NCBI GenBank assembly: GCA_001972305.1
Contig: BDDD01002050.1
Coordinates: 129,325-193,324, forward strand
Direction of reading: 5' to 3'
DNA length: 64,000 nucleotides
Source of the DNA: Cephalotus follicularis
Taxonomy: Eukaryota; Streptophyta; Magnoliopsida; Oxalidales; Cephalotaceae
Part shown: positions 6,351 to 51,027 of the stretch, piece after piece
Position numbering within the stretch: the stretch's first letter is position 1
How the letters are laid out: each line of letters begins with the position of its first letter
Notes under the pieces: model-generated
What the model was told of the DNA's origin: nothing
The model's input: the letters and a program-made list of their open reading frames with translations, nothing else
Databases searched by the model: none
Program-made: the position numbers and the translations under genes

Positions 6351-6595
6351 AATATCATGGTCTCCGCTGTGGCGAACAAACCATAATACCAAATAGGTAG
6401 GCATTTAGCATAAATTTACATTAGGGCCTCACCCTTGATATGCAAGATCCGATACATCATTCGGCCTCCCGACCCATACAATCCACCGCAGAGCGGCGCT
6501 AATAGTATGAACTCAGTATAAGTCCGTACCCACAATCCTCAAAGAAATGAACCAGTTTTGATATCCACTAGGAGGCTAGTCAGAACACCAAAACT
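6351..6595 (-). promoter_or_regulatory. E1 leader: three stem-loops with related loops
   Basis: Read as minus-strand RNA, 6595-6554, 6509-6475 and 6390-6351 each fold into a hairpin. The first has 10 pairs around a loop starting TTCTGACTAGCC. The second has 5 pairs plus 2 around TAGCGCCGCTCTGCGGTGG. The third has 10 pairs around TTTGTTCGCCACAGCGGAGA. Several pairs are G-U only on the minus strand (A-C on the plus strand), which fits selection on the element RNA. E8 has three matching hairpins in the same place (45121-45444). Function unknown; packaging, dimerisation or translation control are possibilities. Confidence 0.6.
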
Positions 6596-6965
6596 TAGTT
6601 ATTTCCTTCCAGTGCTACCCCAGTACTGAAGACAAAAAAAAAAAAAAAATTGGTGCACGCAGGCAACCATATTACAGATCAAATAAAGTACATGATAATA
6701 AAGCAATTTAAACCATCCACAATAGAATTTAAATAAACACAAGCAATTTCAATTTCCGATGACCAATCGAAATAATCCCAAGATTGCCGATATTCCAATA
6801 AAACTCCCACTAAATTATTTAAAATGTAGTTTCCCTCGGTTTAAGAAAAACTTAATTTTATAAAACAACAATGGGAAGGGAATTAAATTAGAATCTCAGC
6901 TACTTTAATCATTCCAAAATAGTCACATAAATCAAAATCGTAGTCCAATTGATATTAAAACGGAT

Positions 6966-41675: not shown

Positions 41676-43850
41676 TGTTAGATATAGTGACCCGACAAGC
41701 CATTAGATGGGTTGTCACATTATATCTTATCTTGTATGAAACAATCTTATTCCTTATATATATGATGTGTGCTAATTTGTTATGGCTATATCACTTGTGT
41801 TTTATCACTTAATTGAAGTAGTTTATTATTTACCTGCTTACACTTGTGATGCCCTGACATAAGCTTGGATGCCTAGCATGGAGGCTGTGAGATTGGTTAC
41901 CTTATTCCTTATGTCGAATTAGTTCCAAGTCATAGGTTCACTTTGTGGGCATTAGTGAACCGGATAGACTTACGCGTATGTTGCCTGCTCATGGAATTGG
42001 AGGATGGATTCTCTCACTACCATCTGTGTTGGACACTAGGGCAAATGCGGGGTGCGAGCTGGGAGCATGTACACTGAACAGGACCCGCGTAGGATACACT
42101 ATTTGGATAGTTGCTATTCTCGTGTTAGTAGTGACTACTATTTGTTGCGGTTGTGTATAAGTGATCATCACTTAGCGAGTTCTCTAACTCGTCTGATCCT
42201 TAGACCTGAGCGACTGCTCTATATTGTATGGAGACGGTTATGCTTTGATCTCCTCCTTACCCAGTCCTCACGCACGGCTGGCAATCGGGTGGTCTTTGGG
42301 TATGATCGAATTTATACGAATATAAGTGAGTGCGCAATATGGGATTGTCACACCTGAGCGAAGGTGATCGGCTCTATTATGATCTGATTATACTTTGGAC
42401 TTATGAAATCCTTGGCCAAGGTTGAGGTAGACTGGAAATTAGATTTCTGGAGAGTTTACCAAAGGTCCTAGTAATGATCAGATATTTTTAGTCATTAAGG
42501 TATTATCTAGGGTTGACACATAACCTTGCCCTAGACCTCAAACAGGGCCAAGCATGACAAGGGATTATAGTACACGCGAACCGATGACTTAGAAAATCTA
42601 GGGTTTATGAGGTGTGTAATAAATTATGGAAAAATTAATTAGATTAATTTTTCCATCTGGATAATATTTGGATATTGCTCCAATAGCATTTAAATTGGTC
42701 AAGGACCATTTAGAATGGCTAAACCGGACCCTAGGGGTATTTCGGTAATTTTTGAACACCTCTTGTTTTAACCAAGATTTTAAAAGGTCCTTACCTTATA
42801 ATGATTAGTTCTTTAATATGTTGGACATATTAAGTCTTGGTGTCAAATATTGGTTATGTGAATTTTGCATTTTCTCGAAACACACATGTTTCATCTTACT
42901 TAACCAATATTCGAATGGTACAGGAGATCACTAAAAGAGTTAGACTCTTATTACTTCATTGGCCAGACAAAGCATCGACGTCTTTTAGAAAGACTTCGAT
43001 GCTTAACGTTTTTTATAGGCGTCGATGTCTTTTAGAAAGAGTCGATGTTCTTAGTACCACATTGCATAAGCATCGATGTCCTTTGGAAGGCGTCGACGTC
43101 TTTGAGCAGAACGTGCAACCTGTGCACGAGCTCACTTTGTGGGCACGTTTTCTCTCTCATCTCTAGCAACCATCTCCCATTCTTGCATGTTATGGGAACG
43201 TGGGGATCATGGCCACAGACTCCCGAGGAGTAAGGACCATGATCCTAAGTGAATGGGAGAGTGGGAGAGAGAAGGAGGAGCCTAGTTATAAGCATTTTCT
43301 GCAGAAAATGTGAGGTAGAAGTTTGGTTTTTGCTGGGCAAGTGACTTCGATTTTCTCTCATCAGAGTGTGTTCCTTTCATCTGTGATACACCAAGCAAGA
43401 GCTGATCTAGGGTGGATTGATTATTGACTTCATTGGTCAATATCAATTTACCTTTTCTAAGCTTAGCGAGAGAGAGAGAGTTCATACACTTTGTTCTTGG
43501 TTATTGCTGGTTGGATTGCTTGTTGTTCCAGAGACTTGGAGAAGATTAAACATGGAATCTACTCAAGCGTGTAGTGGCAGAGAAAGAAGGAGCCTTCACC
43601 CGCTGGTATATCTCTTGGTCCTTCTCTTCTTGTCATGCTTGTGTGTCACCGTTGTATGCTATGATGACACCAATTTAATTCTGTTGATGATGTGGTGATC
43701 CATGTGGTCTGTGGACATGCCTTATGGATTGGTTTTAGTTTTTTTTATTGGGTGTTCTTCCGTTGCTATTTTATATGATTTTGTTTTGTTCTACACCCTA
43801 CACCCCATAGTCCATTTATGGCTCCAGATTCGGTTTATCCGTTTCCATCA
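41676..43850 (+). repeat. E8 5' LTR
   Basis: 2175 bp. It contains about 690 bp (roughly 42037-42706) missing from the 3' LTR. A motif cluster lies at 42971-43110, a TATA-like TTATAAG at 43286-43292, then a leader-like segment to CGTTTCCATCA. Small frames are not conserved. Confidence 0.93.
42971..43110. repeat. Palindromic motif cluster (E8 5' LTR, upstream of TATA)
   Basis: GCATCGACGTCTTTTAGAAA-GACTTCGATGC, GGCGTCGATGTCTTTTAG, GCATCGATGTCCTTTGG and GGCGTCGACGTCTTTG. The 3' LTR copy is at about 50173-50285. The same motif as in the gypsy LTRs, here in a copia LTR. Confidence 0.8.
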
Positions 43851-43851
43851 G

Positions 43852-43863
43852 TGGTATCAGAGC
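43852..43863 (+). other. E8 primer-binding site
   Basis: TGGTATCAGAGC one base after the 5' LTR end: an exact initiator-Met primer site. Confidence 0.93.
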
Positions 43864-44145
43864 GTCCCACATCATCCTTGATTGAATTTTTGCTTTAGAT
43901 GATGAACTGATTAACAGTTTAATTGCTGGAGATGTTTTATGATCAAACTAGATTTTTAAAGTGTCTTAGTGAAAATTGCATGAAATTGGATTTTATTGTG
44001 TTTTTGTCCTGTGGATATTGTTTAAATGTGTTTGGAATTATGTTTGGAACGTGCATAGTGCAATTTGGATTGCCAGATTGGAATGCCAAAGTCTAAATCA
44101 TTATTTTCTGCATTTTTTGAAATGCAGAAACTGCCCAGGGGGTTA

Positions 44146-44390
44146 TAGACGTCGACGTTCTTGATAGACGTCGATGTCTTGTTCATGTTTCCAGGAAACG
44201 CGTCGACGTTCTTGATTGATGTCGATGTCTTGTTCATCATTTCCAGGAAACGCGTCAATGTTCTTGATGAACATCGATGCCTTGTTCATCTATTCTCAGG
44301 AAACGCATCGATGTTATTGATAAACGTCGACGCCTTTTTCAACAGTTTTCGTGAAATGCGTCGACGCCTTCTGGGAAGCGTCGACGTCTT
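44146..44390. repeat. Palindromic motif cluster in the E8 leader
   Basis: About ten motif halves in a loose tandem of roughly 60-bp units: AGACGTCGACGTTCTTGAT, AGACGTCGATGTCTTGTTCA, CGCGTCGACGTTCTTGAT and so on, separated by TTTCCAGGAAACG. It lies after the primer site, so in transcribed leader. Frames across it give repetitive nonsense peptides. Confidence 0.8.
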
Positions 44391-45120
44391 CAAAAAAAAT
44401 TCCAATAAAATTGGATTTTATACATTTTGGCACTTAGAAAATAAAAAATCGTTACTTGTTTTAGTGGGAGTTTGATCAGTTAACAATCCTTAAATTAAAT
44501 TGTATGATTGGTTATTATCTATGGCATTTGTTTTATTTGTGTTTTATAATATTGGATATTATATAGGTCTTATGCACAATGGATGGCCCAAGAAGGACAT
44601 AGACCTAGTTTGTGGTTTTCTTGTGTGGATGGATTTATTTATTTATTTATTATTTTAAAGGTTTGTAATAAGGTGCCTACGTGCACCATTTATTTTTCCT
44701 TTCTTTTGTAATTTTTCCTTGTATTTTTAAATGTAATTTTTCTTTCGAAAAATGTAAAGTTCTTTAGGTAAAAGAAGACCTTGCAAGGAAAAATGGAGGA
44801 AAGGAGAAATGGATTACAAGCTTTTTGAAGGCCATGTATGCATGGTTATTGTTGTAGTGATTTTGGGCTCAAGTCACTACTACTAATGTCCTTGCCAATA
44901 CATTGACATATTTTAGAATTATGTCCAAGGTGCATAAGATACACGTCTTGCATGTTAAGCCGTAATTAATTGGAATTGGCTAATACAACCAATGAATTAA
45001 TTAATGGCTCGGTAATTAAAATTTGAGACCGCAAATTCCCTCGCTTGAATAATAAGTCTTAACGTAGGAACCCATGGAGTGGTTCCCCGTGGCCTTCCAC
45101 AATTTTCATTGAGTAGTGTT

Positions 45121-45444
45121 CCTGGGTTGTTGGTTAGTCATGCCCTAGCTGAGGCTGATGACTTGGGAATATTATGTCAACGTCGGTGTTGGGCACCGCA
45201 AAGGGTGGCTAAGTTTTAGCACTTGGACACGCTTACGTGTGGGTGTTAGAACTAGTGCATTCCAATGACAATTGTGGGTACTGGACTTATCAAGATTCTG
45301 ATGGTTTGTCATGCCCTAGCTGAGGCCATATTGAATCTAAGGCCGAATACTATGATTGGATCTTGTATTGGATACAAATTGACAAGAAAGCCTACCCATT
45401 GGATATATTATAGTTTGTCATACCCTAGCTGAGGCTATAATATG
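45121..45444 (+). promoter_or_regulatory. E8 leader: three stem-loops sharing one loop
   Basis: Hairpins at 45121-45167, 45293-45338 and 45404-45444 share the loop core GTCATGCCCTAGCTGAGG (third copy ATACC). Stems differ completely: 13 pairs with many G-U, 4+6 pairs with an internal bulge, and 10 Watson-Crick/G-U pairs (ATATTATAG with CTATAATAT). They lie 180-500 bp before the gag start. E1 has counterparts in the same location (6351-6595). Confidence 0.7.
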
Positions 45445-45626
45445 AATGCGATGGATTCCAATCCCCACTAGGAAGTTAGACTTCTCGAGTTCCATATGGG
45501 GGTATGGGATACGATTAGAATAGTGGGAGGAACCATAAGCACTAAAGACCAAGTGTTATGGTATCATATATTAAAATTCAAATAAATGCTAACTCATGCT
45601 TATATCTCCTTATCTAGGTTGCTAGA

Positions 45627-46510
45627 ATGGCTTTATCAAAAGCAATGTCCCGTATACTTGAGACAAATAAACTTGAGGGGCCCAACTTCAACGATTGGCA
45701 CCGTAACCTCAAGATTGTCCTTACGGCCAATAAAATGGCCTATGTGATGACTGGGGCGCCTCCTTCACTAGGTGAAGATCCGACGCCCGAAGAGAGTGAG
45801 CGACTAGCCAAATGTCTAGAAGATGACGAGCAGGCTAGATGTCTTGCCCTTCTTGGGATGACACCTGAGCTTCAGCGTCAGAATGAGAAGATTGAGACCT
45901 TATCTACTATACTACTCCATCTTCAGGAGATGTATGGAGCTGAGTCTAGGACTCAAAGGTTTAATCTATCTCGCAAACTCTTTAAGGCTCAGATGCAAGA
46001 GGGAGCTTCAGTCCATGAGCATGGATTAAAGATGATAGACATGATTGAGCAACTGGCTCAATTAGGGTTTTTCATGGACCATGATCTATATGTAGATCTT
46101 ATTCTGACATCCCTTCCTAAGTCGTTCTCATAGTTTTTGGTGAACTTACACGTGAACAAGATAGAGGTAACTCTATCTGGGCTGGTTGCTATGTTGAGGA
46201 TGGCTGAGGCCGATTTTGACTCTGGGAACTCAAAGACCCACTCCCTACTTCTTCCTTCTTCTAGGTCCGTCCAAGGAAAGGGCAGTGCCTCATCTTCCTG
46301 TAAAGGGAAGGGCGTGCTCATGCCTGTCAATACAAAAGGCAAGGGTAAGAAGAAGCAAAAGAAGAAGAAGGGGAAGCTTGGAGCCAGTGGGAGTGTTGCC
46401 AAAGATCGGATGAAGAAGTTAGCTGCTGAAGGTGCTTGTTTCCAGTGCGGTAAGACCGGGCACTGAAAAAGTATTGTCGTGTTGCTGTTGCTGCTGTCTC
46501 TGCTGATAAC
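45627..46510 (+). pseudogene. E8 gag (copia)
   Basis: ATG at 45627: MALSKAMSRILETNKLEGPN, FNDWHRNLKIVLTANKMAY, LLHLQEMYGAESRTQRFNLS and LIDMIEQL-type helices. A stop at 46131-46133 (FS-stop-FLVNL) is a simple nonsense change. The basic linker KGKGKKKQKKKKGKLG leads to a zinc knuckle CFQCGKTGH. The expected Trp codon lost one base (TGG to TG), which makes a TGA and shifts to the frame of KKYC, completing CX2CX4HX4C. Confidence 0.9.
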
Positions 46511-46984
46511 CCGCATGGTGCGAGAACATCAGGTATGTCCATGATTGAACTTAATCTAGCTTTGAATAGTAGTTCTTCATGGGTATTAGATACTGGATGT
46601 GGAACTAACCTTTGCAATTCATTGCAGGGACTGAGAAAAGTTAGAAAGCTTGGAGCTGGAGACCTGGACTTGAGGGTTGGTGATGGATCTAGGATCATTG
46701 CTCAAGCTGTAGGAATTTGTGATGTTAATTTATGTAATGGTTATGTATTGACTTTGGATCCATGCTACTTTGTTATGAATATTGTAAGGAATATTATAAG
46801 TGTTTCTCACTTATGTGGTTTGGCCTTGGAGCTTAAATTCCAAGACATTGGATGTTTTATATATTCGAACAATGTTTGTGTTGGTAATGGTGTTATCAAC
46901 AATGGATTATATGTCTTGAATACTTCACAATCAAATATCCTGTCCATTGAGCAAAGTAATAATAAGAAAAGACAAAGAGAAACT
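46511..46984 (+). pseudogene. E8 protease (copia)
   Basis: MSMIELNLALNSSSSWVLDT begins the domain, which continues GCGTNLCNSLQGLRKVRKL. The active-site triad reads DTG in VLDTGC. Then RVGDGSRIIAQAVG and the hydrophobic FVMNIVRNIISVSHLCGLAL segment. Open and apparently intact, in the same frame as the integrase. Confidence 0.88.
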
Positions 46985-48100
46985 GAGCTAAATAAAACCT
47001 ATACTTGGCATTGTAGACTTGGTCATCTTAGTGATGCTAGACTATCACAGTTGGTTAAGGATGATCTCCTTGATATCCAAGACTTAGAGTCCTATCCAAC
47101 TTGTGAATCCTGTTTATTGGGAAAGATGACCAAATCACCCTTCTCTGGTCAAGGAGAAAGGGCTATGGGCTTACTGGGTCTAGTCCATACTGACGTTTGT
47201 GGTCCTATGTCAGTCAGTGCGCGATGTGGTTATATCTACTTCATAACTTTTACCGATGAGTTATCTAGGTATGGTTATGTGTATCTGATGAAACACAAGT
47301 CAGAATCCTTTGAGAAATTTAAGGAGTTCAAACTTGAAGTAGAAAAACAAACAGGTAAATCCATTAAAATACTTCGGTCGGACCGAGGTGGAGAACACCT
47401 GTCAGCTGAACTCCTAGGTTATCTTAGAGATAACAAAATTCTATCTCAGTGGACTCCTCTTGGAACACCACAGCATAATGGTGTGTCCGAAAGGAGAAAT
47501 CGTACTTTGTTAGACATGGTTCGATCGATGATGTCTTTTATTGACCTTCCTACGTATCTCTGGGTTATGCCCTAGATACAGCTACTTATATCTTGAATCA
47601 GATTCCTTCAAAATCTGTGCCTTCTACTCCATACCAGGTATGGTCAGGGAGGAAACCCAGCCTGAACCATTTGAAGGTTTGGGGCTGCCCTGTTTATGTC
47701 AAGAGGCGTGACACAGATAAGCTGGAAGCACGGTCGGACCGTTGCAGGTTTGTGGGGTATCCTAAAGAAACAAAAGGATACTACCTCTATCACCCTACCG
47801 AACAAAAGATATTTGTTTCGCAAAATTCTGTGTTCCTAGAGAAGGAATATCTTCTTGAAGGAAACAGTGGGAGTAAGTTGGAACTCAAGCAGTTACCACA
47901 AGTAGAAACCACACAGGAGATGGAGGAGTTGGAGGTTAGACCTTTAACAGACACAGCTGAGATTGGATCTCAGGCTGAGAATGGTTCTCAATTAGGCAAA
48001 TCTCCTTTGAGGAGATCAGGCAGAATCCCATTAGCACCTGAGAGGTATGGTTTCCACATCGATGGTACTGATGAGATAAACGTCATTGAAAATGACGAGC
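46985..48100 (+). pseudogene. E8 integrase (copia)
   Basis: GAG-pre-integrase zinc motif in TWHCRLGHLSDARLSQL and YPTCESCLLGK. Catalytic core: VHTDVCGPMSVS (Asp), LRSDRGGEHLSAELLGYL (Asp), HNGVSERRNRTLLDMV (Glu), all intact. A one-base deletion near 47562 (LWGYAL read as LWVMP-stop) shifts the frame. From 47593 it continues NQIPSKSVPSTPYQVWSGR, HLKVWGCPVYVKRRD, CRFVGYPKETKGYYLYHP, then an acidic, poorly conserved linker. Confidence 0.92.
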
Positions 48101-48720
48101 CTGCCAGCTACTTAGAGGCAGTGCAAGGCACTGAATATGAAGCATGGCTAGGAGCCATGAAATCCGAAATGGATTCCATGTACTCCAACCAAGTATGGAA
48201 TTTGGTTGGCTGCAAATGGATCTTCAAGGAGAAGATGAATGCAGATGGAAAAATTGAGACTTATAAAGCTCGATTAGTGGCGAAAGGGTATAGGCAACTA
48301 TATGGGGTCGACTATACTAAGACTTTCTCACCTGTCGCCATGCTTAAATCCATTAGGATTTTGCTTGCTATTGTCGCTCATTATGATTATGAGATATGGC
48401 AAATGGATGTCAAGACGACATTCTTAAATGGGCGTCTTGAAAAGTATTTTTATATGTCCCAACCCGAGGGGTTTACATCTTCCGAGCACCCGCACATGGT
48501 GTGCAAGCTCGAACGGTCCATCTATGGACTAAAGCAAGCATCTCGTAGCTGGAATCTACGTTTTGATGAAGCAGTCAAAGATTTTGACTTCGTTAAAAAT
48601 GTAGATGAGCCATGTGTTTATCGAAAGCAAGAGGGACCTAGTATCACTTTCTTAGTGCTATATGTAGATGACATTCCACTCATTGGGAATGATGTGGGGA
48701 TGTTGTAGTCTACAAAAATA
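48101..48720 (+). pseudogene. E8 reverse transcriptase (copia)
   Basis: In the frame of 47593-48708: YLEAVQGTEYEAWLGAMKSE, CKWIFKEKMNADGKIETYKA, ARLVAKGYRQLYGVDYTKTF, WQMDVKTTFLNGRLEKYFYM (Asp), YGLKQASRSWNLRFDEAV and the YVDD box in FLVLYVDDIPLIGNDVGML. Ends at TAG (48706-48708) where CAG is expected. A short deletion after VWNLV removes a few residues before GCKWIF. Catalytic Asp residues are retained. Confidence 0.93.
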
Positions 48721-49530
48721 TGGCTAACTAAGAATTTTTCCATGAAAGATTTGGGAGAAGCCACCTATATACTGGGTATTAGGATCTTCAGGGATGGATC
48801 CAATAGGTTGCTTGGGCTTTCCCAAAGCTAGTACATCAGCAAGGTGCTGAAGAGGTTTAGCATGGAGAATTCCAAGAGAGGCCTATTGCCAATAGGCGAA
48901 GGAATTCATCTTTCTCGAAAGATGTCTCCTCAGACATCTGAAGAGAGAGCACGCATGAGTCAGATACCTTATGCTTTCGAAGTACCTTAGGAGGACTCAG
49001 GATATGTTTCTTGATCTATGGAAAAGAGAGTGAGCTAAAATTGGAGGGCTTCACAGACTCCAGTTTTGATAGTGATCCGGATGATAACAAATATGTCTCT
49101 GGGTACGTTTTTGTACTTAATGGTGGAGCTGTGAGCTGGCGCAGTTCAAAGCAATGGACTATTGCAGATTCTACCATAGAAGCCTAGTACATAGTAACCT
49201 CAGATGCCGCCAAAGAGGGTGTATGGATGCGCAAGTTGATTACTGAACTAGGAGTTGTTCCATGCATTATTAGTCCAATTGTAATATATTGTGATAATAA
49301 TGGGGTTGTAGCACAAGCCAAGGAACCGTGGTCTCACCAGCGATCCAAACACATCGAGCGGCGGCTATCATTTGATCCCTGAGATTATTGGTAGGGGAGA
49401 TATACGTCTTGAGAGGGTCTCCTCAGAGGAGAACATAGCAGATCCACTGACCAAGGCAATGGGCACCAAGGCTCTGGAGCATCATCGTGGGACGATGGGT
49501 TTAGGCTATAGGAGTTCATGGCTTGAGGGT
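48721..49530 (+). pseudogene. E8 RNase H (copia), internally deleted
   Basis: STKIWLTKNFSMKDLGEATY, LGIRIFRDGSNRLLGLSQS, then SQIPYA joins abruptly to [10 protein letters not shown], missing about 45 residues usually found there. Afterwards [70 protein letters not shown] and HIERR. Stops and two frameshifts break it. Asp (FTDSS) and Asp (YCDNN) sites are visible. Confidence 0.85.
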
Positions 49531-49542
49531 CAAGAGGGAGAT
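49531..49542 (+). other. E8 polypurine tract
   Basis: CAAGAGGGAGAT directly before the 3' LTR TGTTAGATATAG. Confidence 0.85.
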
Positions 49543-51027
49543 TGTTAGATATAGTGACCCGACAAGCCATTAGATGGGTTGTCACATTATATCTTATCTT
49601 GTATGAAACAATCTTATTCCTTATATATATGATGTGTGCCAATTTGTTATGGCTATATCACTTATGTTTTATCACTTAATTGAAGTAGTTTATTATTTAC
49701 CTGCTTACACTTGTGATGCCCTGACATAAGGTTGGGTGCCTAGCATGGAGGCTGTGAGATTGGTTATCTTATTCCTTATGTCGAATTAGTTCCAAGTCAT
49801 AGGTTCGCTTTGTGGGCATTAGTGAACCGGATAGACTTGTGCGTATGTTGCCTGCTCATCGAATTGGAGGATGGATTCTCTCACTACCATCTGTGTTGGA
49901 CACTAGGGATTTAGAATGGCTAAACCGGACCCTAGGGGTATTTCGATAATTTATGAACACCTCTTGTTTTAACCAAGATTTTAAAGGGTCCCTGCCCAAT
50001 AATGATTAGTTCTTTAATATGTTGGACATATTAAGTCTTTGTGTCAAATATCGGTTATGTGGATTTTGCATTTTGTCAAAACACATATGTTTCATCTTAC
50101 TTAACCAATATTTGAAGGGTACAGGGGATCACTAAAAGAGTTAGACTCTTATCACTTCACTGGCCAGACAAAGCATCAACATCTTTTATAAAGAGGCATC
50201 GATGTCTTTTAGAAAGATTCGATGTTCTTAGTAACACATTGCATAAGCGTCGATGTCCTTTGGAAGGCGTCGACGTCTTTGAGCAGAACGTGCAACCTGT
50301 GCACGAGCTCACTTCGTGGGCACGTTTTCTCTCTCATCTCTAGCAGCCATCTCCCATTCTTGCATGTTATGGGAACGTGGGGATCATGGCCACAGACTCC
50401 CGAGGAGTAAGGAGCATGATCCTAAGTAAATGGGAGAGTGGGAGAGAGAAGGAGGAGGCTAGTTATAAGCATTTTCTGCAGAAAATGTGAGGTAGAAGTT
50501 TGGTTTTTGCTGGGCAAGTGACTTCAATTTTCTCTCATCAGAGTGTGTTCCTTTCATCTATGATACGCCAAGCAAGAGCTTATCTAGGGTGGATTGATTA
50601 TTGACTTCATTGGTCAATATCAATTTACCTTTTCTAAGCTTAGTGAGAGAGAGAGAGTTCATACACTTTGTTCTTGGTTATTGCTGGTTGGATTGCTTGT
50701 TGTTCCAGAGACTTGGAGAAGATTAAAGAGGGAATCTATGCAAGCGTGTAGCGGCAGAGAAAGAAGGAGCCTTCACCCGCTGGTATATCTCTTGGTCCTT
50801 CTCTTCTTCCCATGCTTGTGTGTCACCATTGTATGCTATGGTGACACCAATTCAATTCTGTTGATGATGTGGTGATCCAGGTGGTCTGTGGACATGCCTT
50901 ATGGATTGGTTTTAGTTTTTTTTATTGGGTGTTCTTCCGCTGTTATTTTATATGATTTTGTTTTGTTCTACACCCTACACCCCATAGTCCATTTATGGCT
51001 CCGGATTCGGTTTATCCGTTTCCATCA
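49543..51027 (+). repeat. E8 3' LTR, internally deleted
   Basis: 1485 bp. It matches the 5' LTR except for one clean gap of about 690 bp after GTTGGACACTAGGG, where the 5' copy continues CAAATGCGGGG. Motif cluster at about 50173-50285; TATA-like TTATAAG at 50464-50470. Followed by ATATG (51028-51032). Confidence 0.93.

Follow-up and report, generated by a model that had tools for sequence, protein, structure and literature searches.

Repeated hairpins in the leaders of copia-type retrotransposons, with loops that tend to agree within an element

Introduction

MLV carries two adjacent hairpins with GACG loops, the four Psi loops of HIV differ from each other, and the coat-protein operators of RNA phages of the MS2 type are short hairpins, with an ANYA loop and a bulge, that are read by the capsid protein. 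The GACG tetraloop hairpins in the leader of the gammaretroviral Psi (MLV), found also in alpharetroviruses, act in packaging and partly in dimerisation (PMC516450). The HIV-1-type Psi consists of SL1–SL4 downstream of the primer site, of which SL1 dimerises by kissing loops, and retroviral packaging signals are located between primer site and gag (PMC3902901). In Ty1, a copia-type element of yeast, the structured 5′ region of the leader (TIPIRT domain) takes part in packaging and dimerisation (PMC5454406), and the dimerisation and packaging signals of BARE2, a parasitic plant copia element of barley, are said to be conserved (PMC3735527). A paper on enod40 deals with other stems derived from transposable elements (PMC10578108). 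Transposon words were looked for in PMC12218528 and none were found. Among the matches listed from open-licence papers, none describes an array of repeated-loop hairpins in the leaders of plant copia elements.

Results

The E8 element and its leader

The hairpins described here belong to E8, an element in a 64,000-nt stretch of the Cephalotus follicularis genome (the window; Table 1). E8 has the features of Ty1/copia elements, namely a pair of LTRs, a primer site that we take to be of the initiator-Met type, gag, and integrase before reverse transcriptase. Pfam places its gag, integrase-region and reverse-transcriptase pieces in copia-type families, arranged as in copia elements (PF14223; PF13976 and PF00665 upstream of PF07727), the score of PF00665 lying just below its curated cut-off. 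The copy is defective, with a stop after 168 codons in the gag frame, and the insert in its 5′ LTR (42042-42707) is missing from the 3′ LTR. ARAGORN found no tRNA gene in the window.

Table 1. Positions of the E8 element, its leader hairpins and their counterparts in the second copia family (F2) of the window
Feature	Position	Strand	Details
Whole copia element E8	41676-51027	+	
5′ LTR of E8	41676..43850	+	with insert of ~666 bp; self-comparison
E8 leader	43851..45626	+	1776 nt
Primer binding site	43852..43863	+	TGGTATCAGAGC; sequence
H1	45121..45167	+	13-pair outer stem, bulge 45136-45137, apical helix, loop 45144-45147 CCUA
Hx	45213..45252	+	bulge 45225-45226, apical helix ACACG/CGUGU, loop 45232-45235 CUUA
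H2	45293..45338	+	6+4-pair outer stem, bulge 45307-45308, apical helix, loop 45315-45318 CCUA
H3	45404..45444	+	~10-pair outer stem, bulge 45416-45417, apical helix, loop 45424-45427 CCUA
gag, first truncated part (Retrotran_gag_2)	45627..46133	+	
3′ LTR of E8	49543..51027	+	
F2 Hx counterpart	6555..6594	-	bulge UG, ACUAG/CUAGU, loop CCUC
F2 H2 counterpart	6471..6514	-	CGCCGC/GCGGUG, loop UCU in window copy
F2 H3 counterpart	6351..6390	-	bulge UG, UUCGC/GCGGA, loop CACA

Several other features of the E8 leader were observed. Four head-to-tail units of 52 nt, rich in CGTCGACG-like palindromes, occupy 44137-44391, and related units are found elsewhere in the window, including the LTRs. Strong folding is seen on either strand of 43955-44512. 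A block with 72% identity, common to the leaders of E8 (44618-44709) and F2 (6632-6727, minus strand), lies a long way upstream of the hairpins. A further hairpin (45532-45561; CCATAA...TTATGG, with ACTAAAGACC near the tip) stands directly before gag and is alike in E8 and F2.

Abundance of the repeated 18-mer

The first-pass annotation had reported one core sequence three times ahead of gag, the third copy with one change, and this is borne out: an 18-mer occurs exactly at 45137-45154 and 45308-45325 and, with G changed to A at 45422, at 45417-45434. Dinucleotide shuffles of the window give 0.04 expected matches with up to three mismatches, and none of 100 shuffles reached three matches. The exact 18-mer is present in 4,239 copies in the 1.58-Gb host genome (reversed control, 5), and the E8 family is large, family denoting here a group of like sequences. 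At least two recognisable copies were found in 50 of 60 loci taken in listing order, and a spacing of 170–172 and/or 108–110 nt was kept in 49 of these 50, the exception being L045 with 151. Two other leader copies, L015 and L016, lie on one contig 1588 bp apart in the same orientation, each being 96% identical to that of the window. Viral contigs contained no match to the motif, and the sole prokaryote match, an exact 21-nt one on a Pseudidiomarina contig (L099, 1853-1873), is by estimate at about chance level.

Hairpin anatomy

Refolding recovered the three differing outer stems proposed before, of 13 pairs with many G-U (45121-45133 with 45155-45167 in H1), of 4 and 6 pairs parted by an internal loop in H2, and of about 10 pairs in H3. 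The sequence shared by the hairpins had been taken for a loop, which is wrong: in the folds of H1 and H2 it forms a 2-nt 5′ bulge and then a short helix, UCA(U)GC paired with GCUGA, closed by a CCUA tetraloop. In the window copy of H3, the private change at 45422 removes one apical pair and the fold opens. The three hairpins first described are real; a fourth, Hx, had been missed between H1 and H2, where it follows the same plan with an unrelated apical stem. The common plan is an outer stem, a 5′ bulge of 2–3 nt, an apical helix of 4–6 bp and a loop of 3–5 nt that usually ends in A.

Among 71 aligned E8 copies, the window included, the loop is CCUA in 70 for H1, 63 for Hx, 63 for H2 and 64 for H3, the counts for H1–H3 being biased by the picking of L039–L098 with the exact 18-mer and of L108–L127 with its double variant, in which the Hx sequence played no part. 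All four loops are alike in 49 of the 71, and the bulge is TG in most copies of H1–H3.

Rfam covariance models run against 44000-46500 (E up to 5) gave seven matches, all far under their gathering scores and none of them on 45121-45444. A hammerhead ribozyme of the retrozyme type was considered for GTC and CTGATGA in H1 and rejected, there being no Rfam match. A short upstream reading frame in the loop (ATG-CCC-TAG) was likewise rejected as a general feature, being absent from the F2 loops.

Compensatory change within the E8 family

The outer stems are largely paired among E8 copies (H1 98%, H2 95%, H3 91%), with 95 changed-but-paired against 9 broken cells in H1, 10 against 23 in H2 and 20 (12 of them both-sided) against 36 in H3; more breakage than retention in H2 and H3 is expected if most copies are decaying. 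Of 49 copies, 33 have A-U and 13 have G-C at 45412/45436 in H3. Re-dealing partners within the family did as well in 650, 42 and 2 of 1,000 trials for the outer stems of H1, H2 and H3, and in 1,000, 1 and 171 for their apical helices, a weak test that does not separate H1, since few sites vary and G-U pairing accommodates most transitions. On a tree, over all four hairpins, pairing was kept in 28 of 39 substitutions on internal branches against 91 of 195 on terminal ones (p=0.003); hairpin by hairpin, the contrast is significant only for Hx (p=0.02) and not for H1, H2 or H3.

Genome-wide, core positions 3 and 15, which form an apical pair, are C-G in 4,239 cases, U-A in 431, C-A in 229 and U-G in 50, where about three U-A would be expected under independence, with the reservation that copies share ancestry. 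A tree-based covariation scan within E8 alone found nothing significant (best E about 5), and its strongest pairs follow one deep split.

Hairpins in F2 and other copia families

F2 has counterparts of Hx, H2 and H3 with other apical sequences on the same plan. The window copy of F2 has a poly-T stretch in the place of H1 (~6630-6660, minus strand); H1 is carried by five of six other F2 copies (L162–L165, L167) and was not seen in L166. When F2 was compared with a structure made from E8 only, pairing was kept at 11 of the 13 changed pairs around Hx (p=0.001) and at all 7 of those in H3 (p=0.012). The E8-derived helices taken together gave 41 kept and 25 broken, against a null mean of 28.7 kept (p=0.0006), and for H2, by sequence alignment, 8 were kept and 8 broken, which is not significant. 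The domain-closing helices had 5 pairs the same, 2 kept, 3 broken and 8 gapped in F2, and the single large closed domain suggested by alifold was rejected, its closing helices being unsupported across families. A pair table from the joint alignment (86 same, 21 one-sided, 18 both-sided, 1 gap) was discarded as circular, since the fold had been made on that alignment.

A flank-anchored H3 pattern matched 1,978 sites genome-wide (control, 1), of which 100 were listed; 30 of those listed were by reading not of the E8 type, and 26 of these leaders were taken, the other four being F2. The one plan is kept by the hairpins of these 26 further loci, most of which belong to other copia families. The outer stem of H3 (ATTATRG/CYATAAT) is mostly constant across families and its apical helix is rebuilt, for example as UCAGC/GCUGA, UUCGC/GCGGA, UUAGC/GUUAA or ACACG/CGUGU. 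The earlier picture of a constant loop on a rebuilt stem thus holds within the E8 family and is reversed for H3 across families.

Apical arms, aligned by eye, were re-dealt between families 20,000 times. For H3, with distinct arm forms only, 66 of 75 cells are paired (re-deal mean 45.7, best 62), leaving out L142, L145 and L159 (other helix length or unclear), L147 (like L146) and L137 and L155 (arms as in E8); a second class, with four pairs, gives a weaker result (31 of 32 cells paired, 328 re-deals as good). For Hx the figures are 65 of 75 against a best of 63, without L143, L144, L149 and L154 (six-position helix with G-G) and L147, L148 and L156 (no Hx), and for H2 they are 77 of 85 against a best of 68, without L139, L150, L153 and L154 (four-pair class), L143, L149, L156, L141 and L147. 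When only the tip letters of 29 H3 hairpins were shuffled, with no alignment involved, the combined z was -6.0. Every pair of columns in 31 sequences was also scanned for covariation against a tree (L147 dropped for its foreign upstream half, L134 lacking the anchor); the highest-ranking pair was 45418/45432 (E=0.05), an apical pair of H3 with U-A in 17, C-G in 8 and A-U in 4; the runner-up, 45384/45479 (E=0.45), is no base pair, and the remainder had E above 2. The H1 pattern of other families matched 1,150 sites (control, 0); the 100 that were listed include CUG..CAG as well as CAG..CUG arms.

Between H1 and Hx, five loci (L138, L144, L153–L155) have an extra hairpin that the window copy of E8 does not show, for example CAGUACU GGGGU AGUACUG or CAGUGU GAGGU RCACUG.

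Agreement of loops within elements

Loops tend to agree within an element and to differ between families beyond chance, which is a new observation. In a loop table read by eye (without L147 and L148, F2 entered without H1), 48 of 145 loop pairs within an element are identical, against a permuted mean of 6.8 and a maximum of 19 in 20,000; when each look-alike group is represented by a single family, the count is 33 of 103 (mean 4.2, maximum 16). All four loops are alike in 4 of the 26 tabulated families: CCUA in E8, CACA in L144, UACA in L149 and GACA in L153. L154 has CAAA three times and UAAU, L143 has UACA three times and UAUA, several families have CCA in H1 and H2, and L151 and L152 read CAAA/UGCA/CAAA/UGCA in the order H1, Hx, H2, H3. 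Hx often has the deviating loop, and 83 of the 100 tabulated loops end in A.

Automatic tests gave the same direction. A first loop parser that recovered few loops found 5 of 67 pairs identical (mean 1.0; 55 of 20,000 as good). A structure-free count of shared 6-mers in central windows of 14 nt found 34 of 119 (mean 10.5, maximum 22 in 3,000); E8 is not in this count, its stand-in having no anchor, and some windows missed their hairpin. The same test on 20 new loci, chosen for varied H1 sequence and several of them without Hx, H2 or H3, found 29 of 82 (mean 11.8, maximum 25 in 5,000), and 11 of 36 when reduced to nine loci with distinct H1 centres (4 of 5,000 as good).

On a tree made without the hairpin tips, L144 is sister to L149 and L143, neighbouring families that are one loop letter apart from it in all or nearly all hairpins, and L153 is sister to L150 and L139 (AAAA/GAUA/GAAA or GGAA/AAAA). 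H1 and H3 of L149 have one stem in common.

Fold stability

The first-pass annotation had allowed that shuffled leader sequence might fold as stably, and this is partly true: H1, H2 and H3 reach z-scores of only -2.1, -1.1 and -1.8, and control stretches elsewhere in E8 are at least as stable relative to shuffles. In the window the leader domain has z = -3.2, the upstream leader -6.9 and -6.3, and gag -4.2. At the alignment level the hairpin domain scores -5.9 in sense and +0.9 in antisense, and the controls -17.2/-9.9 (43955-44512), -6.5/-4.3 (gag) and -3.5/+0.5 (gag2), the stretch 44513-45070 having too few copies; the sense-only pattern of the domain recurs, weaker, in gag2. Fold stability was rejected as a diagnostic, the controls being as stable as the domain, and alone it would not have revealed the structure.

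Discussion

The structure is real; its position, its four-hairpin plan, its compensatory changes and an agreement of loops within elements beyond chance are shown. An RNA structure in the leader had been proposed from one copy, and the alignment and covariation check upholds it to the extent that changes across copies and families tend to preserve pairing. A repeated structured element whose loop letters tend to change together points to one common reader, and Gag is the obvious candidate given the involvement of GACG tetraloops of alpha- and gammaretroviruses in packaging (PMC516450). The hairpins are thus putative repeated binding sites for the element's own Gag that would mark genomic RNA for packaging, a reading to which we give a probability of about 0.5. 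The nucleocapsid part of Gag would bind the four hairpins, and RNA so bound would be marked for packaging into the particles of the element. If one Gag reads all sites, the loops would change together whenever its preferred loop changes, and each family would come to have its own tag among the many related families in the same cells. We infer Gag as the reader, packaging as the output and the telling apart of families as the purpose; packaging, already named among the possible functions by the first-pass annotation, remains a good guess.

It is unlikely, though conceivable, that the hairpins serve translation or RNA processing, as an internal-entry, shunt or splicing-control element getting ribosomes to gag past a long leader. 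Ribosomes are unlikely to arrive at gag by plain scanning, since 52 ATGs precede it in the 1.8-kb leader; directly before gag, E8 has a sequence resembling a 3′ splice site (pyrimidines, TGCTAAC, TAG), and F2 has a similar pyrimidine tract and TAG. However, ATGs are present between the hairpins and gag, a splice donor common to E8 and F2 was looked for and not found, and such a function offers no reason for the agreement of four loops. The upstream ATGs and the splice-like site leave room for an intron-borne region, which would confine the hairpins to genomic RNA.

Agreement without a common reader would arise if template switching by reverse transcriptase copied tips between hairpins, as could be suspected from the whole tip common to H1–H3 of E8 and from the nearly identical stem and loop of Hx and H3 in L151. 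We regard this as improbable, since in L144 and L153 the loops agree although the four apical stems all differ, so that copying of whole tips is not enough, and tracts of about four letters are presumably too short for template switching.

Dimerisation, with loops kissing the same loops of a second RNA, has in its favor the self-complementary CUAG of E8 (loop plus closing G) and the UGCA loops of L151 and L152, but of the tabulated loops only UGCA and UAUA hold a self-complementary 4-mer, and CACA, UACA, GACA, CAAA and CCA do not. We consider it quite improbable for the array, and palindromic kissing was rejected as a general rule, a self-complementary loop being missing from most families.

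Very improbable is a tertiary architecture in which similar receptors within the RNA itself take up the loops, loop and receptor changing together: NNNA loops and repeated bulges of 2–3 nt would suit it, but no receptor was seen changing with the loop, and within E8, where this was assessed, the bulge stays TG in most copies of H1–H3. Priming by tRNA, another function proposed earlier, is unlikely for the hairpins because the primer site (43852-43863) lies ~1.3 kb upstream of them.

Returning to Gag-read packaging sites, we tentatively suggest that the loops may form a self-recognition code, in which a family-specific loop is read by the family's own Gag and code and reader co-evolve; this is possible rather than probable. 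To change the code would require joint change at several sites, and such a change appears to have taken place between the sister families that have CACA and UACA loops. If the suggestion is true, many related families in one genome tell their own RNA apart. To our knowledge, the choice of RNA for packaging by plant LTR retrotransposons has been little studied. One genome here provides many natural variants of one RNA region, so that specificity could be tested directly by means of short RNAs and recombinant Gag, and the hairpins would provide a structural tag by which copia families can be classed and non-autonomous elements relying on a foreign Gag recognised.

Comparison with known systems

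As in retroviral Psi, the hairpins lie between primer site and gag and have conserved structure with compensatory change, though not as one closed domain. They resemble the gammaretroviral Psi in being leader hairpins with a common tetraloop, but number four, have mostly NNNA loops (CCUA, CACA, UACA, GACA, CAAA, CCA and others, and not GACG) and follow another bulge plan; their loop letters, in contrast to the GACG of gammaretroviruses, vary between families and tend to agree within an element. With the HIV-1-type Psi they have in common four hairpins downstream of the primer site, whereas the palindromic loop of SL1 has no equivalent in most of the copia families here. The MS2-type operator is likewise a bulged tetraloop hairpin, an analogy only, the proteins being unrelated. 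For BARE, the available part of the source mentions no array of hairpins with a repeated loop (PMC3735527). Ty1 has a pseudoknot and two hairpins with complementary tips (PMC5454406), whereas the tips of the copia hairpins described here are alike and not complementary.
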